A DNA stretch of 37,434 nucleotides from Selenomonadaceae bacterium (GTDB lineage: Bacteria; Bacillota; Negativicutes; Selenomonadales; Selenomonadaceae): contig JAFZMV010000035.1 of NCBI GenBank assembly GCA_017553205.1, forward strand, positions 1 through 37,434, given 5' to 3'. Both the position numbers and the translations under genes were made by a program. This document shows positions 7,245 through 36,319 of the stretch, in pieces; the first letter of the stretch is position 1, and every line of letters starts with the position of its first letter. The notes under the pieces are model-generated. The model did no database searches. It worked only from the letters and a program-made list of their open reading frames with translations, and had not been told where the DNA came from.

Positions 7245-7266
7245 AAAAATCTTTTCTGTAAAAAAA

Positions 7267-7296
7267 TCCCGGCAATGTTGTCGGGATAATTTTTTA
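7267..7296 (+). terminator. Intrinsic terminator after gltX
   Basis: Stem TCCCGGCA (7267-7274) with TGTCGGGA (7279-7286), including a G-U pair, followed by a T run. Confidence 0.85.
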
Positions 7297-7371: not shown

Positions 7372-8343
7372 GTGATGATTTTAAAAAAATTTACAGCCGT
7401 TCTTCTGGCGGTTTTTTTTGTATCTGAATTATTTTTTGTTTCGCAGACTTCAGCAGAACGCCCAAAACCTTCTTCAGCAGTTTCTTATACTGCTCCGATT
7501 TCTCTTTATTGGCTGGCAAAAGCGGGAGTCCCTGAGGCGATAGAATATCTGCAATATATTAACGCAGAAAGTATTTTGAAACCTGAAAACATTTCGCAAT
7601 ATGAACGCGTCGAAAGAATCAACAAAATTTATAATGAAATTCGTTATTCGTCGCTGAATAATTTTATTGAATCGGAAAATTATAAAAATGTTTTAGATTT
7701 GGGTTGCGGTGTTTCTCCGCGTTGTTTGTATACTGCAAAAAAAGAAATAAATTATACCGGTACTGACTTGAAAGACGTTGTAAATGTTTTAAATGTTTAT
7801 GCTCCGAATTTTTTGAAAGATGACATGAAAAAATACGTCCGCTTTGTGACTGCCGATGCGTCAAACCGCAATGAGATGATTAATTCTGCTAAAGAATTTA
7901 ACGGAAAAATTTGTATCGTTGAGGAAGATTTATTAATGTATCTTTCACGAGATAAACAAAAAGCAATGTTGAAAAATATCCGCGACATTTTGAAAAAAAA
8001 TGGAGGTTGCTTTGTGACTTCTGATTTTGTTGCGGGAGAAATTTTTATGTCAATCGCAAAAAATATTTACGGCGATGAGGACGCATTAACTTTGGCAAAA
8101 GAAACTCAAAAAATTTACGAAGATATTTCTGAAATGTTTTTCAACGAAACCATGTTTAAAAGCAAAGAAGAGGCTGTAAAATTTATTGAAGATGCGGGAT
8201 TAAAAATTGAAATGCGTCCTATTTTCAGCGGCACTCCGAATATAAGAAGTATCAGAGATTTAAATAACCGCGACATTGAAAATATAAACGCAATGACACA
8301 GCAAAAACTTTTGTGGATTATCACAGTTGACGATAAAAAATAA
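7372..8343 (+). CDS. SAM-dependent methyltransferase with an N-terminal signal peptide
   Basis: The body is a class I SAM-binding methyltransferase: motif I NVLDLGCGVSPRCLY (about residues 106-120), then YTGTDLKDVV as the acidic-loop strand, and KICIVEEDLLMYL. The pattern is reminiscent of leucine carboxyl methyltransferase/PpM-type enzymes, though the substrate is unknown. Oddly, the first ~28 residues look like a true signal peptide: KK, a long hydrophobic core and TSAERP. SAM is a cytosolic cofactor, so either the protein stays membrane-anchored facing in, or the fold is used for something else outside. The GTG at 7372 and ATG at 7375 are both possible; AAAGGA at 7359-7364 fits either. The next gene starts 29 bases after the stop and is also exported, so they may be cotranscribed. 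Confidence 0.8.
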   Translation: MMILKKFTAVLLAVFFVSELFFVSQTSAERPKPSSAVSYTAPISLYWLAKAGVPEAIEYLQYINAESILKPENISQYERVERINKIYNEIRYSSLNNFIESENYKNVLDLGCGVSPRCLYTAKKEINYTGTDLKDVVNVLNVYAPNFLKDDMKKYVRFVTADASNRNEMINSAKEFNGKICIVEEDLLMYLSRDKQKAMLKNIRDILKKNGGCFVTSDFVAGEIFMSIAKNIYGDEDALTLAKETQKIYEDISEMFFNETMFKSKEEAVKFIEDAGLKIEMRPIFSGTPNIRSIRDLNNRDIENINAMTQQKLLWIITVDDKK

Positions 8344-8371: not shown

Positions 8372-9472
8372 ATGAGAAAATTTTTAAAAATATTTTTTTT
8401 AGTCGGCTTTATCGTTGCGGGAATTTTTAATTTTGCTGAAGCTGAAGAAGTCACTGTTGAAGGTGTCGGAACAGATCGGGAAAGTGCTTTAAGAGATGCC
8501 CGCCGTGTTGCAGTCGAACAAGTTGTCGGAACTTTTGTAGATTCCAGAACTTTGACAAATAATTTTAAAATCGAACTGGACAAAGTTTATTTGAACAGCA
8601 AAGGCTTTGTCGGAAAAGTAAATGTTTTGAGTGAAGGAATGGCAAACGGTTTTTATAAAGTTCGTGCAGTGATAAATGTTGACAAAAATCCGAGTGCCGA
8701 AATTCTTCAACAAGTTCAGGCTGTCATGGCTTTGAACGATCCAAGAATTGCGGTGGCAGTTTTCAAGGGAAATTCTGCAACTCATGAAGATGCTATTGAG
8801 TCGGCGATTATTGATAAACTTATTTCATTAAATTTTACTCACATGATTGATCCGAATATTGTAGCGGGCTTACAAAATGCTCAAATGCAGGAAAGTCTTT
8901 ACAACGGCAGACCGATTAGCGGAGTCGGTTCAAGTTTCGGAGCAGATTTTATTGTTTTGGGAAGATGTCATACAGTTTCTTCAGGCGGTGTAAAAATTCC
9001 TGATTTCAAGGGCGGTTACATTGAAACAGGATTAAACGTGGGAAAAACTGAACTGACTGCAAAAATAATTCGTATTGATACGGGCGATATTTTGGAAACT
9101 TTCAGTATTGAAGTTGCGGGACTCAGTGACAATAACAGTGCTGCCGAACGTGAAGCGTTAAAAAATATGGCTGGTCAAGCCGCCTCAAAAGTTGAAGAAA
9201 AATTTCGGCGTATCGGTGCAAGGAGCAGTAGAGGCATACAGATAACAGCACTTTCCAACGATTATAATAAAGTTCAGTCTTTGGCGAATGATTTACGCGG
9301 ACTTTCAGGAGTTCAAAGCGTTTATGTTCGCGAGCATAGAAACGGAAAAGCCATTATCGATGTTGATACAGATCAAGACGTTGACAGTTTAATTTTATTA
9401 CTTCGCAACAGGAGCAGTTTAAATTTCGTAATTGAATCAACGGGCGGCAGCAGTGCCACACTCAGAATTTGA
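8372..9472 (+). CDS. Exported FlgT-like protein
   Basis: A secreted or periplasmic protein of 366 residues. The signal peptide is residues 1-24 (KFLKIFF, hydrophobic core, FAEAEE). The N-terminal block VEGVGTDRESALRDARRVAV, then EQVVGTFV and GFYKVRAVINVD, matches the LPP20/FlgT N-terminal pattern seen in outer-membrane-associated flagellar proteins. The middle (about 145-285) contains FGADFIVLGRCHTV and ELTAKIIRIDTGDILETF, resembling a CsgG/FlgO-like fold. The C-terminal ~75 residues (VQSLANDLRGLSGVQSVYVR and VDVDTDQDVDSLILLLRN) look like a small alpha/beta substrate-binding module. The start is ATG 8372 with GGGAG at 8359-8363; the GTG at 8363 overlaps that site. It pairs with the CsgG-like gene 15 bases downstream. 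A flagellar role is inferred, not shown. Confidence 0.7.
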   Translation: MRKFLKIFFLVGFIVAGIFNFAEAEEVTVEGVGTDRESALRDARRVAVEQVVGTFVDSRTLTNNFKIELDKVYLNSKGFVGKVNVLSEGMANGFYKVRAVINVDKNPSAEILQQVQAVMALNDPRIAVAVFKGNSATHEDAIESAIIDKLISLNFTHMIDPNIVAGLQNAQMQESLYNGRPISGVGSSFGADFIVLGRCHTVSSGGVKIPDFKGGYIETGLNVGKTELTAKIIRIDTGDILETFSIEVAGLSDNNSAAEREALKNMAGQAASKVEEKFRRIGARSSRGIQITALSNDYNKVQSLANDLRGLSGVQSVYVREHRNGKAIIDVDTDQDVDSLILLLRNRSSLNFVIESTGGSSATLRI

Positions 9473-9487: not shown

Positions 9488-10024
9488 ATGTTTCTGAAAA
9501 AAATTTTAGGAATTTTTTGTTTGCTGACATTTTTATTTTTGCCGTTGAATTGTTCAGCCGCAAAACCTTCAGTGGCGGTTATTCCTTTCAGCGATCAAAG
9601 CCCGCGTCATGGTATTGTGAATGATAATATCATGAGTATTATTCGAGAATGTGTGGAAACTGATGTAGTACAAACCGGAAAATTCAGACCGCTTACAAGA
9701 ACTGAAATTCAAAAGCTGATTGACGAAATAAAATTTGATCAAAGCGGACTTGTAGACCCTTCCACTGCCGCAAAATACGGAAAAATGATAGGAGCCCAGT
9801 ATCTTATAATCGGTACGGTTACGGGACTAGGCATGCAAAAAGTCAATCAGTATGTGGCACATTTATCACTTCGCATGATTGAAGTAGAAACTGCTGAAAT
9901 TATTTTTGCAGGACGCGGGACAGGTCAATCCAAAATCAGTACTTTTGACGCACTCCAAATTGCAACTGAAGATGCTCTGCACGGTCAACGCGGAATAATT
10001 ACTATGTTAAACGGCGGAAAATAA
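9488..10024 (+). CDS. Exported CsgG/LpoB-like protein
   Basis: A 178-residue exported protein with the CsgG-family pattern: PSVAVIPFSDQSP after the signal peptide, VVQTGKFRPLTRTEIQKLI, KYGKMIGAQYLIIGTVTG, then SLRMIEVETAEIIFAGRG. CsgG relatives form or assist outer-membrane secretion pores, flagellar rings (FlgO) or activators of peptidoglycan synthases (LpoB); sequence alone does not choose between these. The signal peptide has a Cys in PLNCSA, but the preceding Asn does not fit a good lipobox, so cleavage by signal peptidase I after the Ala residues is as likely. It starts 15 bases after the FlgT-like gene, with GGAG upstream, and is followed by a terminator, so the two form one unit. Confidence 0.78.
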   Translation: MFLKKILGIFCLLTFLFLPLNCSAAKPSVAVIPFSDQSPRHGIVNDNIMSIIRECVETDVVQTGKFRPLTRTEIQKLIDEIKFDQSGLVDPSTAAKYGKMIGAQYLIIGTVTGLGMQKVNQYVAHLSLRMIEVETAEIIFAGRGTGQSKISTFDALQIATEDALHGQRGIITMLNGGK

Positions 10025-10108: not shown

Positions 10109-10139
10109 TTGTAGAAAATTTTTTCTGCTGTGTTATAAT
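10109..10139 (+). promoter_or_regulatory. Probable promoter for the M16C peptidase
   Basis: A perfect TATAAT lies at 10134-10139. TTGTAG at 10109-10114 is the best -35 candidate, but the spacer of 19 is long. Confidence 0.5.
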
Positions 10140-10173
10140 AGCGGAAAATTTTTTTATTTTGAGGAGCGATTGC

Positions 10174-34140: not shown

Positions 34141-36165
34141 TTACTTATCAGAGTAAGTTATCAAAGAATTTTCTTGCGTGAGATTTTCAAATTTTGTTCC
34201 TGAAATTTTTTCAAATTCTGCAGGTGTCCAATCAGTTTTAACAATTTCAGAAAGATTGTCGGCAGTTACAAAATTATCTTCTGCAAAAAGTGCCGAAACA
34301 TCTGCCGTCACTTTAGACGATTTAGACGAACTGTTATAAGTCGTCGTCTTTCCGTTTGAATTATCTCTAATGACAATATCTACACCTTTACCGTTTTTGA
34401 CAGTCACGGTATTATTTTTTGCAACAGTGAAAATGACATCATTTCCGCTGACTTTTGCGGTGTAATCGTCCAAAATAACAATAATATCTTTTTTGGTTTC
34501 ATAATCGGTAATAACATCTTTTCCGTCAAAATGAACAAAAATGTCATTTCCTTTTCCGCCTGTCAATTTGTTATTTCCGCTTTCACCGTTCAAAGTATCG
34601 TTACCTTCTCCGCCAAGCAAAATATCATTTCCTTTTCCGCCGTTCAAAATATCATCTCCGGCAAGACCTTTCAAAGTATCATTTCCTGCAAGACCACTCA
34701 TAATATCGTCGGATGCAGTTCCTGTAAGATTATCATTTTTGTTTGTGCCGTTTATGATATTGTTGTTAAGATCAATTTCAAGACTTCCTGACGCTTTTGC
34801 ATAGCCGCTGAAAACTGCAGTGTCTCCGTTGAAAACTATCGCTTCAAGCAATCCGTCATCTTGATTTGTTATATTAAGTTTTTCTCCGTCAAAATTAATT
34901 ATTGTCGTCAAGTCAGTTGAAGGAGTCAAGAAAATTGTATAACTTCCATAAGACAAAACTGTTTGCGAATCTTTTGACATGGTTAATGCACCTGACGAAG
35001 GATTATAAGAAACTGAACCAAGAGCAGTAATATTTCCGCTGAACAATGTTTTAGAATCTCTTTCAACAGTAAGGTCTACAGATGTCATGCCGCCGATATT
35101 CAATGCACCGTCCACAAATTGCAAAGCAGCTCCTTTTGAATCGTCGGCAAGTTTCGCGGTTACGGTAACTCCTCTCGATGTTGTAATTAAAGAAGTATTT
35201 TTTCCTAAAGTAAAAGTTCCGTCCGAACTCAAAGTTGCAGTTCCGCCTGTTACCTGAACAGTGCTGTTAAAAATTTCTGAAGAAGTATTAGTATTTTTAA
35301 TCACAACTTTTAATTTATCTTTGTCTGTGTCGCTGATTACAAGTTTTCCGTCGTCCATTGCAAGTTTTACTGACAAATCGCCTGTCGGTTTTAAAACGGT
35401 TTGATAATTATTTGTTGTAAAAGTTGCTGTTGTATTTTTACTTGCATTCAAATTGCCGTTTGACATATCGTAAGTAACTTTTCCGTTTGCAACACTGAGA
35501 TTACCGCCGAAAAATACTTTTCCGTTTTTACTTGCAGTAAAATCGATTGAGCCTGCCTCTTTTGCAGATTTCAGAGTGAGTACTCCGCTTTGACTTACAG
35601 AAAAATTTGCTCCGCCTTCTTCGGCGACAGTAGCTTTTAAAGTCGAATCATGGTTAGTTTTTACAGTAACGCTCGAACCTTTGGCAACTTTTAAATTTCC
35701 GGAATTATCAAAACTTACTGTTCCGACAAAATTGAAAGATTCTTTTGAAATTACTGTATTTCCGTCTTTTATGACATTCTGCAAAAATCCGTCGTCGGCA
35801 CTCTTGAAAGTTAAATTGCCTTTTTTATCAGGAATAACATATTCTGTCAATGTACTCAAAGCAGTTGTTGTAAGAGTTCTGCCGTTATTTGTTCGAGTAA
35901 TTGAAATTCCTTTCGGAATCGTCAATTTTCCGGTTGAAGAATCAAGCGAAAAAGCTCCCTTGGAAATGGTCGCAGTTGAAGTATGAGATTTACCTCCAGC
36001 ACTTTGAGTAACATTTACTTTACCTGAAACGGTAACTACGCCTTTTTTGTCAACTTTGATATTCTTTCCTGTCAGCGTAACTGAAAGACCATTCAACGTG
36101 AAAGAAATCTTTCCGTTTTCAAACGACATTGCAAACATCTGCAAATCAAAAACAAAACTCTTCAT
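34141..36165 (-). CDS. Large repeat protein with RTX calcium-binding motifs
   Basis: A 674-residue, probably secreted Ca-binding protein. It has no classical signal peptide. The N terminus reads MKSFVFDLQMFAMS; a DLQ-x-FA motif near the start occurs in other Negativicute repeat proteins. Residues ~70-470 hold six diverged repeats of about 78 residues (start points near 70, 148, 228, 308, 383, 458) with a GxVSxDxSGxL core. Residues 472-545 are RTX nonapeptides such as GLAGNDTLKG and GGEGNDTLNG, which bind calcium and mark type I secretion substrates. The C-terminal ~47 residues recur in the partial gene at 37221. The ATG at 36165 is chosen because TAGGTGGTG sits nine bases ahead; an upstream GTG-type start would lack this. 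Role as adhesin or S-layer-like protein is a guess. Confidence 0.85.
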   Translation of the reverse strand: MKSFVFDLQMFAMSFENGKISFTLNGLSVTLTGKNIKVDKKGVVTVSGKVNVTQSAGGKSHTSTATISKGAFSLDSSTGKLTIPKGISITRTNNGRTLTTTALSTLTEYVIPDKKGNLTFKSADDGFLQNVIKDGNTVISKESFNFVGTVSFDNSGNLKVAKGSSVTVKTNHDSTLKATVAEEGGANFSVSQSGVLTLKSAKEAGSIDFTASKNGKVFFGGNLSVANGKVTYDMSNGNLNASKNTTATFTTNNYQTVLKPTGDLSVKLAMDDGKLVISDTDKDKLKVVIKNTNTSSEIFNSTVQVTGGTATLSSDGTFTLGKNTSLITTSRGVTVTAKLADDSKGAALQFVDGALNIGGMTSVDLTVERDSKTLFSGNITALGSVSYNPSSGALTMSKDSQTVLSYGSYTIFLTPSTDLTTIINFDGEKLNITNQDDGLLEAIVFNGDTAVFSGYAKASGSLEIDLNNNIINGTNKNDNLTGTASDDIMSGLAGNDTLKGLAGDDILNGGKGNDILLGGEGNDTLNGESGNNKLTGGKGNDIFVHFDGKDVITDYETKKDIIVILDDYTAKVSGNDVIFTVAKNNTVTVKNGKGVDIVIRDNSNGKTTTYNSSSKSSKVTADVSALFAEDNFVTADNLSEIVKTDWTPAEFEKISGTKFENLTQENSLITYSDK

Positions 36166-36192
36166 AAAAAAAACACCACCTAAAAAGATTTT

Positions 36193-36214
36193 AAAAAGAT
36201 TTTTAAATCTTTTT
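36193..36214. repeat. Palindrome in the leader of the RTX gene
   Basis: AAAAAGATTT and AAATCTTTTT form perfect 10-bp arms around two bases, between the promoter and the start codon. It could be an operator or mRNA hairpin; nothing more is visible. Confidence 0.5.
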
Positions 36215-36223
36215 CTGAAACTT

Positions 36224-36251
36224 ATTAGACAACGATATAAATACTTGTCAA
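36224..36251 (-). promoter_or_regulatory. Promoter of the RTX gene
   Basis: On the minus strand: TTGACA (36251-36246), a 16-base spacer and TCTAAT (36229-36224), 59 bases before the ATG. Confidence 0.75.
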
Positions 36252-36319
36252 CAAAAAATTCTGAAAAATCTTGAAACATTTTTTAGACTTCAACAAAAGA
36301 GTTATTTCAAAAAAATTTT

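Follow-up and report, generated by a model that had tools for sequence, protein, structure and literature searches.

A predicted exported LCM-fold methyltransferase-like protein in rumen Selenomonadaceae and apparent graded loss of the SAM site among its exported relatives

The gene at 7372-8343 on the plus strand of the window (the whole stretch of 37,434 nucleotides analyzed here, contig JAFZMV010000035.1 of a Selenomonadaceae bacterium) encodes a methyltransferase-fold protein whose predicted export is well supported. On balance, we favor the view that this protein belongs to an exported LCM-fold lineage that is being repurposed as envelope binding or scaffold proteins, within which the window copy has retained the older pocket. 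Methyltransferases that use SAM are regarded as cytosolic enzymes, since this is the compartment where SAM is found. The source bacterium lives in the rumen, and some MAGs of its genus were deposited under the name Quinella, a diderm of the rumen Selenomonadaceae. The open reading frame 7372-8343 was confirmed in the window; an AAGGA stretch precedes two adjacent possible starts, GTG 7372 and ATG 7375, of which ATG 7375 is the likelier and is used for residue numbering. The following features are referred to below.

7266-7287, plus strand: intrinsic terminator-like site after gltX and before the three-gene unit (consensus match only)
7375-8343, plus strand: LCM-fold methyltransferase-like protein, predicted to be exported (322 aa with ATG 7375 as the start, 323 aa with GTG 7372)
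7375-7455, plus strand: signal peptide, residues 1-27, predicted cleavage between SQTSA and ERP (n/h/c-region rule, pN/pS, charges)
7456-8343, plus strand: mature domain with an LCM/PPM-type Rossmann fold (AlphaFold model; VIA-align Z = 18.2 to 3iei)
7642-7644, plus strand: R90, aligned with a basic residue (R or K) kept in 16/16 LCM-STAS paralogues
7696-7722, plus strand: SAM motif I, D108-LGCGVSP-R116 (sequence and alignment)
7765-7767, plus strand: D131, acidic residue after strand 2 (alignment)
7855-7857, plus strand: D161, motif III acidic residue (alignment)
7924-7926, plus strand: E184, acidic residue of the E-x-LLMY motif (alignment)
8372-9472, plus strand: exported FlgT-like protein, second gene of the unit (Foldseek; passes the leader rule)
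9488-10024, plus strand: CsgG/LpoB-like protein, predicted to be exported, from the unit's third gene (Pfam; passes the leader rule)
10121-10148, plus strand: intrinsic terminator-like site after the three genes (consensus match only)

The cleavable signal peptide ending in TSAERP that had been proposed from the sequence corresponds to a 27-residue leader of the Sec/signal peptidase I type, with K4K5 at the N-terminus, a hydrophobic core containing one charged residue (E18), and the segment T25-S-A27 ahead of E28RP. Leader calls were made with a simple n/h/c-region rule, which was passed by all 53 full-length short homologues of the genus, by none of the 16 STAS-fused paralogues, by 9 of 2120 segments taken from the interior of the 53 short proteins, and by 71 of 517 neighboring frames of at least 200 aa, truly exported neighbors among them. 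In other Selenomonadaceae genera, all 12 rows passed, although for 2 of them this required starting at an inner Met instead of the called start used for the other 10. Five genera (g32, g37, g38, g45, and g47) are represented among the 12, together with named Selenomonas and Anaerovibrio records. Retention of the leader in orthologues, which the original prediction had singled out for checking, is seen in 53/53 and 12/12 cases, an outcome in favor of that prediction. By this rule-based assessment, a basic n-region, a hydrophobic core, and a small-x-A site are present and kept in orthologues, as expected of a Sec substrate cleaved by signal peptidase I. Neither a lipobox cysteine nor an RR motif was found in any of the 53 short homologues, and lipoprotein and Tat substrate assignments were ruled out on these grounds. 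For the leader, the mature part, and the upstream DNA read in frame, pN/pS was 0.53, 0.24, and 1.04, respectively, over 293 close pairs; these pairs share sequences and hence are not independent, and 282 of them lie outside the six closest clade A sequences. The 11 pairs from the window's own clade gave 0.56 for the leader and 0.19 for the mature part, and the other 282 pairs gave 0.52 and 0.25, respectively. The leader codons are under purifying selection, and the upstream DNA is not. In one relative (L078, Selenomonas ruminantium WCT3, near position 8000), the leader is not in frame with the domain, owing either to gene breakage or to a sequencing error.

For the window protein, AlphaFold (53 rows) gave a model with a mean pLDDT of 87.6 and a pTM of 0.84, in which residues 1-3 and 18-36 fell under pLDDT 50. 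The best VIA-align match was LCMT-1 (3iei; Z = 18.2, rmsd 4.3, 255 aligned), followed by TYW4 (2zw9; Z = 18.0), ML2640c (2uyo; Z = 17.7), and PPM1 (2ob2; Z = 17.6). All top 15 rows were of the LCM/PPM type (LCMT-1, TYW4, ML2640c, PPM1, and Rv0731c; Z = 15.9-18.2), where we take ML2640c, Rv0731c, and TYW4 to be members of this fold family; the first rows outside the family had Z-scores of 15.6 and 15.1. Foldseek ranked a Hen1 methyltransferase domain first (E = 1.1e-6), and the E-values of PPM1 and LCMT-1, which came next, were almost identical. The predicted structure of the window protein has the LCM/PPM fold of the PF04072 family; at the sequence level, Pfam LCM (PF04072) gave no row at E ≤ 1 and so fell short of the gathering cut-off. 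What Pfam detected was limited to a generic methyltransferase signal (Methyltransf_25, 25.8 bits, cut-off 27), and nothing came near the cut-offs in NCBIfam. Compared with the LCM/PPM family (human LCMT-1, yeast PPM1, TYW4, and Mycobacterium leprae ML2640c), the window protein is alike in predicted fold across residues 34-322 and shares motif I, the acidic strand-2 residue, and the E-x-x-x-MY motif, but it differs in carrying a Sec signal peptide, in an identity of just 11-16%, and in lacking a Pfam LCM match.

The same domain, including an N-terminal YxA-type part that aligns with the window protein, is present in cytosolic LCM-STAS proteins of Selenomonadaceae and Lachnospiraceae. The 16 members from the genus are 21-28% identical to the window protein. 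Unlike the latter, which ends at residue 322 after the methyltransferase domain, the LCM-STAS proteins are about 400 aa long, have no leader, and carry a C-terminal STAS domain. Two longer paralogues that were tested both match Pfam STAS. Of these two, L060 passes Pfam LCM (23.6 bits against a cut-off of 22.3), and L061 gave no LCM row. A profile built from 15 STAS-fused rows matched SpoIIAA-type STAS chains with E-values of 2.3e-9 to 4.3e-6. The cytosolic fusion was observed in L060, L160-L162, L134, and other loci; at L160, a separate STAS gene and a gene for an RsbW-like HATPase lie close by, hinting at a partner-switch link for the LCM-STAS proteins.

A search of 99 genomes gave matches in 53, all from one genus. 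Among the 75 genus matches listed, 70 were read: 53 short proteins of full length, a further short protein truncated at a contig end, and 16 longer homologues. The longer ones are mostly about 400 aa, and in some of them a contig end or the choice of start reduced the length. Scanning named genomes with a profile also yielded 70 loci, from Selenomonadaceae/Selenomonadales MAGs (many titled rumen or other gut, and three deposited as Quinella), Selenomonas ruminantium, Selenomonas sp. AE3005, Anaerovibrio sp. RM50, and three Lachnospiraceae. At the family level, matches of any size were present in 102 of 189 genomes (38 of 99 among the better genomes), and at the class level, 50 of 300. The class matches outside the window's family came from four genomes of one other genus, with frames of 423-452 aa, plus one weak partial match; L162, the single member read from those four genomes, is STAS-fused. 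With profile A3, matches were found in 40 of 299 genomes of the phylum, and those beyond the source genome and the same-family genome G121 were partial, with E-values of 2.4e-10 or weaker, and look like generic methyltransferases.

A phylogenetic tree of 81 rows was built with IQ-TREE and rooted at the midpoint; the program warned of long branches meeting. In this tree, the 65 exported rows make up one side of a branch (support 100/99) opposite the cytosolic LCM-STAS proteins, and fall into sets corresponding to the other genera (96/87), clade A, which includes the window protein (99/94), and clade B (100/100). Given the midpoint root and this warning, a leader acquired just once is the most straightforward interpretation, not a proof. 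The exported and cytosolic proteins share ancestry, and the simplest account is an ancestor of the exported proteins that lost STAS and gained a leader; leader loss on the cytosolic side is a possible alternative history.

Motif I and the following acidic strand, described earlier as intact, are present as D108-L-G-C-G112-V-S-P-R116 and D131. At the aligned positions of the SAM site, the window protein has R90, G110, G112, D131, D161, and E184, where the assignment of R90, D161, E184, and the others as SAM contacts is our assumption from LCMT-1 and methyltransferases in general; a limited literature search for the LCMT-1 SAM contacts found none. Five groups were compared, namely, cytosolic STAS-fused (16), clade A (7), other exported genera (12), B1 (19), and B2 (27), with B1 and B2, together clade B and 46 of the 53 genus members, separated by the residue at position 110; two B1 rows (L011 and L035) group with B2 on the tree. 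A basic residue at position 90 is found in 16/16 cytosolic, 5/7 clade A, and 10/12 other-genera rows, and in none of the B1 (0/19) or B2 (0/27) rows. D161 follows a similar course (16/16, 7/7, 10/12, 0/19, and 0/27, in the same order), as does an acidic residue at 184 (16/16, 6/7, 12/12, 3/19, and 0/27, with Q in B2). G112 is kept in 16/16, 7/7, 12/12, and 17/19 rows and is replaced by S in B2 (0/27). The acidic residue at 131 is complete in all five groups, and position 110 is occupied by G or A throughout the exported groups but by P or A in the cytosolic one.

When positions were ranked by entropy, five of the six SAM-site positions were at the top in the cytosolic group; in clade A plus the other genera they were mixed (0 to 55%), and in clade B they ranked at 40-79%, except for 131. 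The most conserved positions of clade B include P115 and R116 (both 46/46), E131, E183 (45, with one D), and Y189 (45, with one F), and the N-terminal YxA-LxW part is kept in most exported rows. These residue patterns appear to reflect a graded loss of the SAM site after export and not decay of the whole gene, given the conservation of P115, R116, E131, E183, and Y189 in clade B. The persistence of P115, R116, E183, Y189, and the YxA-LxW part suggests a kept ligand or partner, and the SAM-site loss in clade B points to repurposing. The new extracytoplasmic role that was one of the two options originally offered is favored. The label "SAM-dependent methyltransferase" is probably wrong for clade B members.

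Under the repurposing reading, the window protein would leave the cytoplasm through Sec, lose its leader by cleavage after A27, and fold into a soluble LCM-fold protein of the periplasm. A figure legend on putative Quinella cells names both a cytoplasmic and an outer membrane (PMC9585023), so a cleaved Sec substrate should end up in the periplasm; the word methyltransferase is absent from the main text of that Quinella genome paper. Following loss of STAS and gain of the leader in the ancestor of the exported proteins, selection on the donor site would have been relaxed outside the cytoplasm, where SAM is not known to be supplied, far in clade B and partly in clade A and the other genera. The exported proteins would then serve as periplasmic binding or scaffold proteins, with the old pocket or face reused for another ligand or partner, and the window copy, as a conservative member, may still bind a SAM-like nucleoside. 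Against repurposing stand G112, the acidic residue at 131, and D161 in 7/7 clade A rows, as an active enzyme would show; likewise, the replacement of glycine by small residues (A and S) in clade B does not exclude ligand binding. The coexistence of site-keeping and site-losing exported clades in one genus raises the questions of whether SAM or a relative is ever available in the bacterial periplasm and of how an enzyme fold becomes a non-enzyme after a change of compartment.

The foremost alternative, which we regard as unlikely, is that the pocket keeps a nucleoside or SAM-breakdown ligand (SAH or MTA) and that the protein is a periplasmic sensor or carrier without catalysis. Such a role would fit the retention of the acidic and glycine positions in clade A and the other genera, as well as the symporter-cluster gene that follows in 6 of the 9 named Selenomonas/Anaerovibrio loci and whose tested member is of the SDF type by Pfam. 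It fits less well with the neighbor comparison of the Quinella copies, none of which has an SDF-type symporter gene beside it. The symporter gene lies directly behind the exported gene in L079-L083, L085, L156, and, judged by eye, L157, and in L163 a relative with 21% identity follows. Pfam identified SDF in L083 and L156, leaving an N-terminal part of about 140 residues without assignment; an RsbW-like domain suspected at the N-terminus of the Selenomonas symporter was not supported.

Next in rank, and likewise improbable in our judgment, is a true periplasmic SAM-dependent (probably carboxyl) methyltransferase that acts on a periplasmic or surface target and obtains SAM by leakage or through an exporter. 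Motif I, D131, D161, E184, and Y189 are all present in the window protein, and G112 and the acidic residue at 131 are found in 17/17 clade A plus other-genera rows. Moreover, 6 of the 9 genomes with the window-type copy also hold a clade B copy (one cut by a contig end), as if the functions differed. However, in the same conservative set, R90 is lost in 4/17 and D161 in 2/17 rows, compared with 0/16 in the cytosolic set; the sister clade dropped the site yet stays exported; and we know of no periplasmic SAM source. If true, an active periplasmic enzyme would depend on SAM being present beyond the cytoplasmic membrane in a diderm, its methylation targets would be envelope components, and the sister clade would have since lost the site. 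The listed literature, from which subscription papers were mostly absent, contained no match for exported or periplasmic methyltransferases, exported LCM proteins, periplasmic pseudoenzymes, or LCM-STAS fusions. Secreted pathogen methyltransferases that act in host cells, to the extent covered by these sources, resemble the window protein in leaving the cell; they differ in that the window protein is predicted to stay in the bacterial periplasm. Secreted pathogen methyltransferases work where the host supplies SAM.

The other option originally considered, an enzyme tethered to the membrane and facing in, would treat the leader as an uncleaved anchor and let the domain use cytosolic SAM. Although this arrangement would remove the SAM problem and the hydrophobic core of the window protein contains E18, we consider it very unlikely. 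The first 8 residues have a net charge of +1 or +2 in 53/53 short homologues, and the opening 15 residues of the mature part have no net positive charge in 50/53 (the script itself required A at -1, so the count at that position is no finding). This distribution predicts an N-in/C-out orientation and, together with the signal peptidase I-type sites, would place the domain outside; the inward-facing anchor was rejected on the charge distribution. A mis-called start, with a cytosolic protein beginning near residue 35, is hardly credible, being rejected by selection acting on the leader codons but not on the upstream DNA and by the presence of the leader in all 53 short homologues.

The repurposing reading also draws on gene order, and our best guess for the window copy is that it probably acts with the FlgT-like and CsgG/LpoB-like envelope proteins. 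The unit between the two terminator-like sites consists of three genes on the same strand, separated by 19 or 28 bases (depending on the start) and then 15; 6 such sites were found in the region against 2.8 expected, so each is weak evidence. The products of the second and third genes both pass the leader rule, in agreement with the initial impression that the next two genes encode exported proteins. For the 8372-9472 protein, the first Foldseek row was FlgT (3w1e, E = 1.7e-9), followed by an LPHT ring chain; the model is only moderate (pLDDT 69.9, pTM 0.39), and the best VIA-align rows cover a CsgG/TolB-like middle domain, whereas 3w1e ranks twelfth (Z = 9.9, rmsd 13.0). FlgT_N was detected below the cut-off in the orthologue from L071 (E = 2.1e-4) and with E = 0.22 in the 8372-9472 protein itself. 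The 9488-10024 protein matches Pfam CsgG (57.4 bits, cut-off 20.8) and LpoB (41.1 bits, cut-off 22.3). The resemblance to FlgT, CsgG, and LpoB envelope proteins is confined to these two neighbors; the methyltransferase-fold protein showed no such likeness in Pfam or Foldseek.

Both partner genes also follow in five other clade A loci (L071, L072, L074, L075, and L076). The contig of L073 ends at the methyltransferase-fold gene, and in L008, the outlying clade A member, neither partner gene was found within the 1.5 kb of flank behind it. FlgT-like orthologues (at least 60%) occur in 8 of 66 genus genomes, all of them among the 9 genomes with a window-type protein (at least 70%); in the ninth, G011, the contig ends there. 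Distant FlgT-like exported proteins are multi-copy in the genus, with matches in 62/66 genomes and up to 6 per genome, and the co-occurrence link therefore concerns this orthologue pair. A phage or mobile origin was set aside because the gene order is common to close relatives.

Gene neighbors differ between the clades, which, like the L008 locus, counts against the repurposing reading. Upstream of clade B genes one often finds either MotA, MotB, and AcpS or else FapA, DUF6115, and an acetolactate synthase-type gene. The neighbor analysis covered the 70 loci from named genomes except L077, L134, L135, and L137-L140; L094, L101, L126, and L128 showed no family frame in it, and these loci do not enter the motility counts. 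Motility genes are near 20 of the 28 clade B loci with at least 5 kb upstream and near 0 of 7 Selenomonas/Anaerovibrio loci, so a flagellar link of the exported proteins is only a hint. Elsewhere in the window, at 34141-36279 on the minus strand, an RTX-repeat protein with four hemolysin-type calcium-binding stretches is likely a secreted surface protein.
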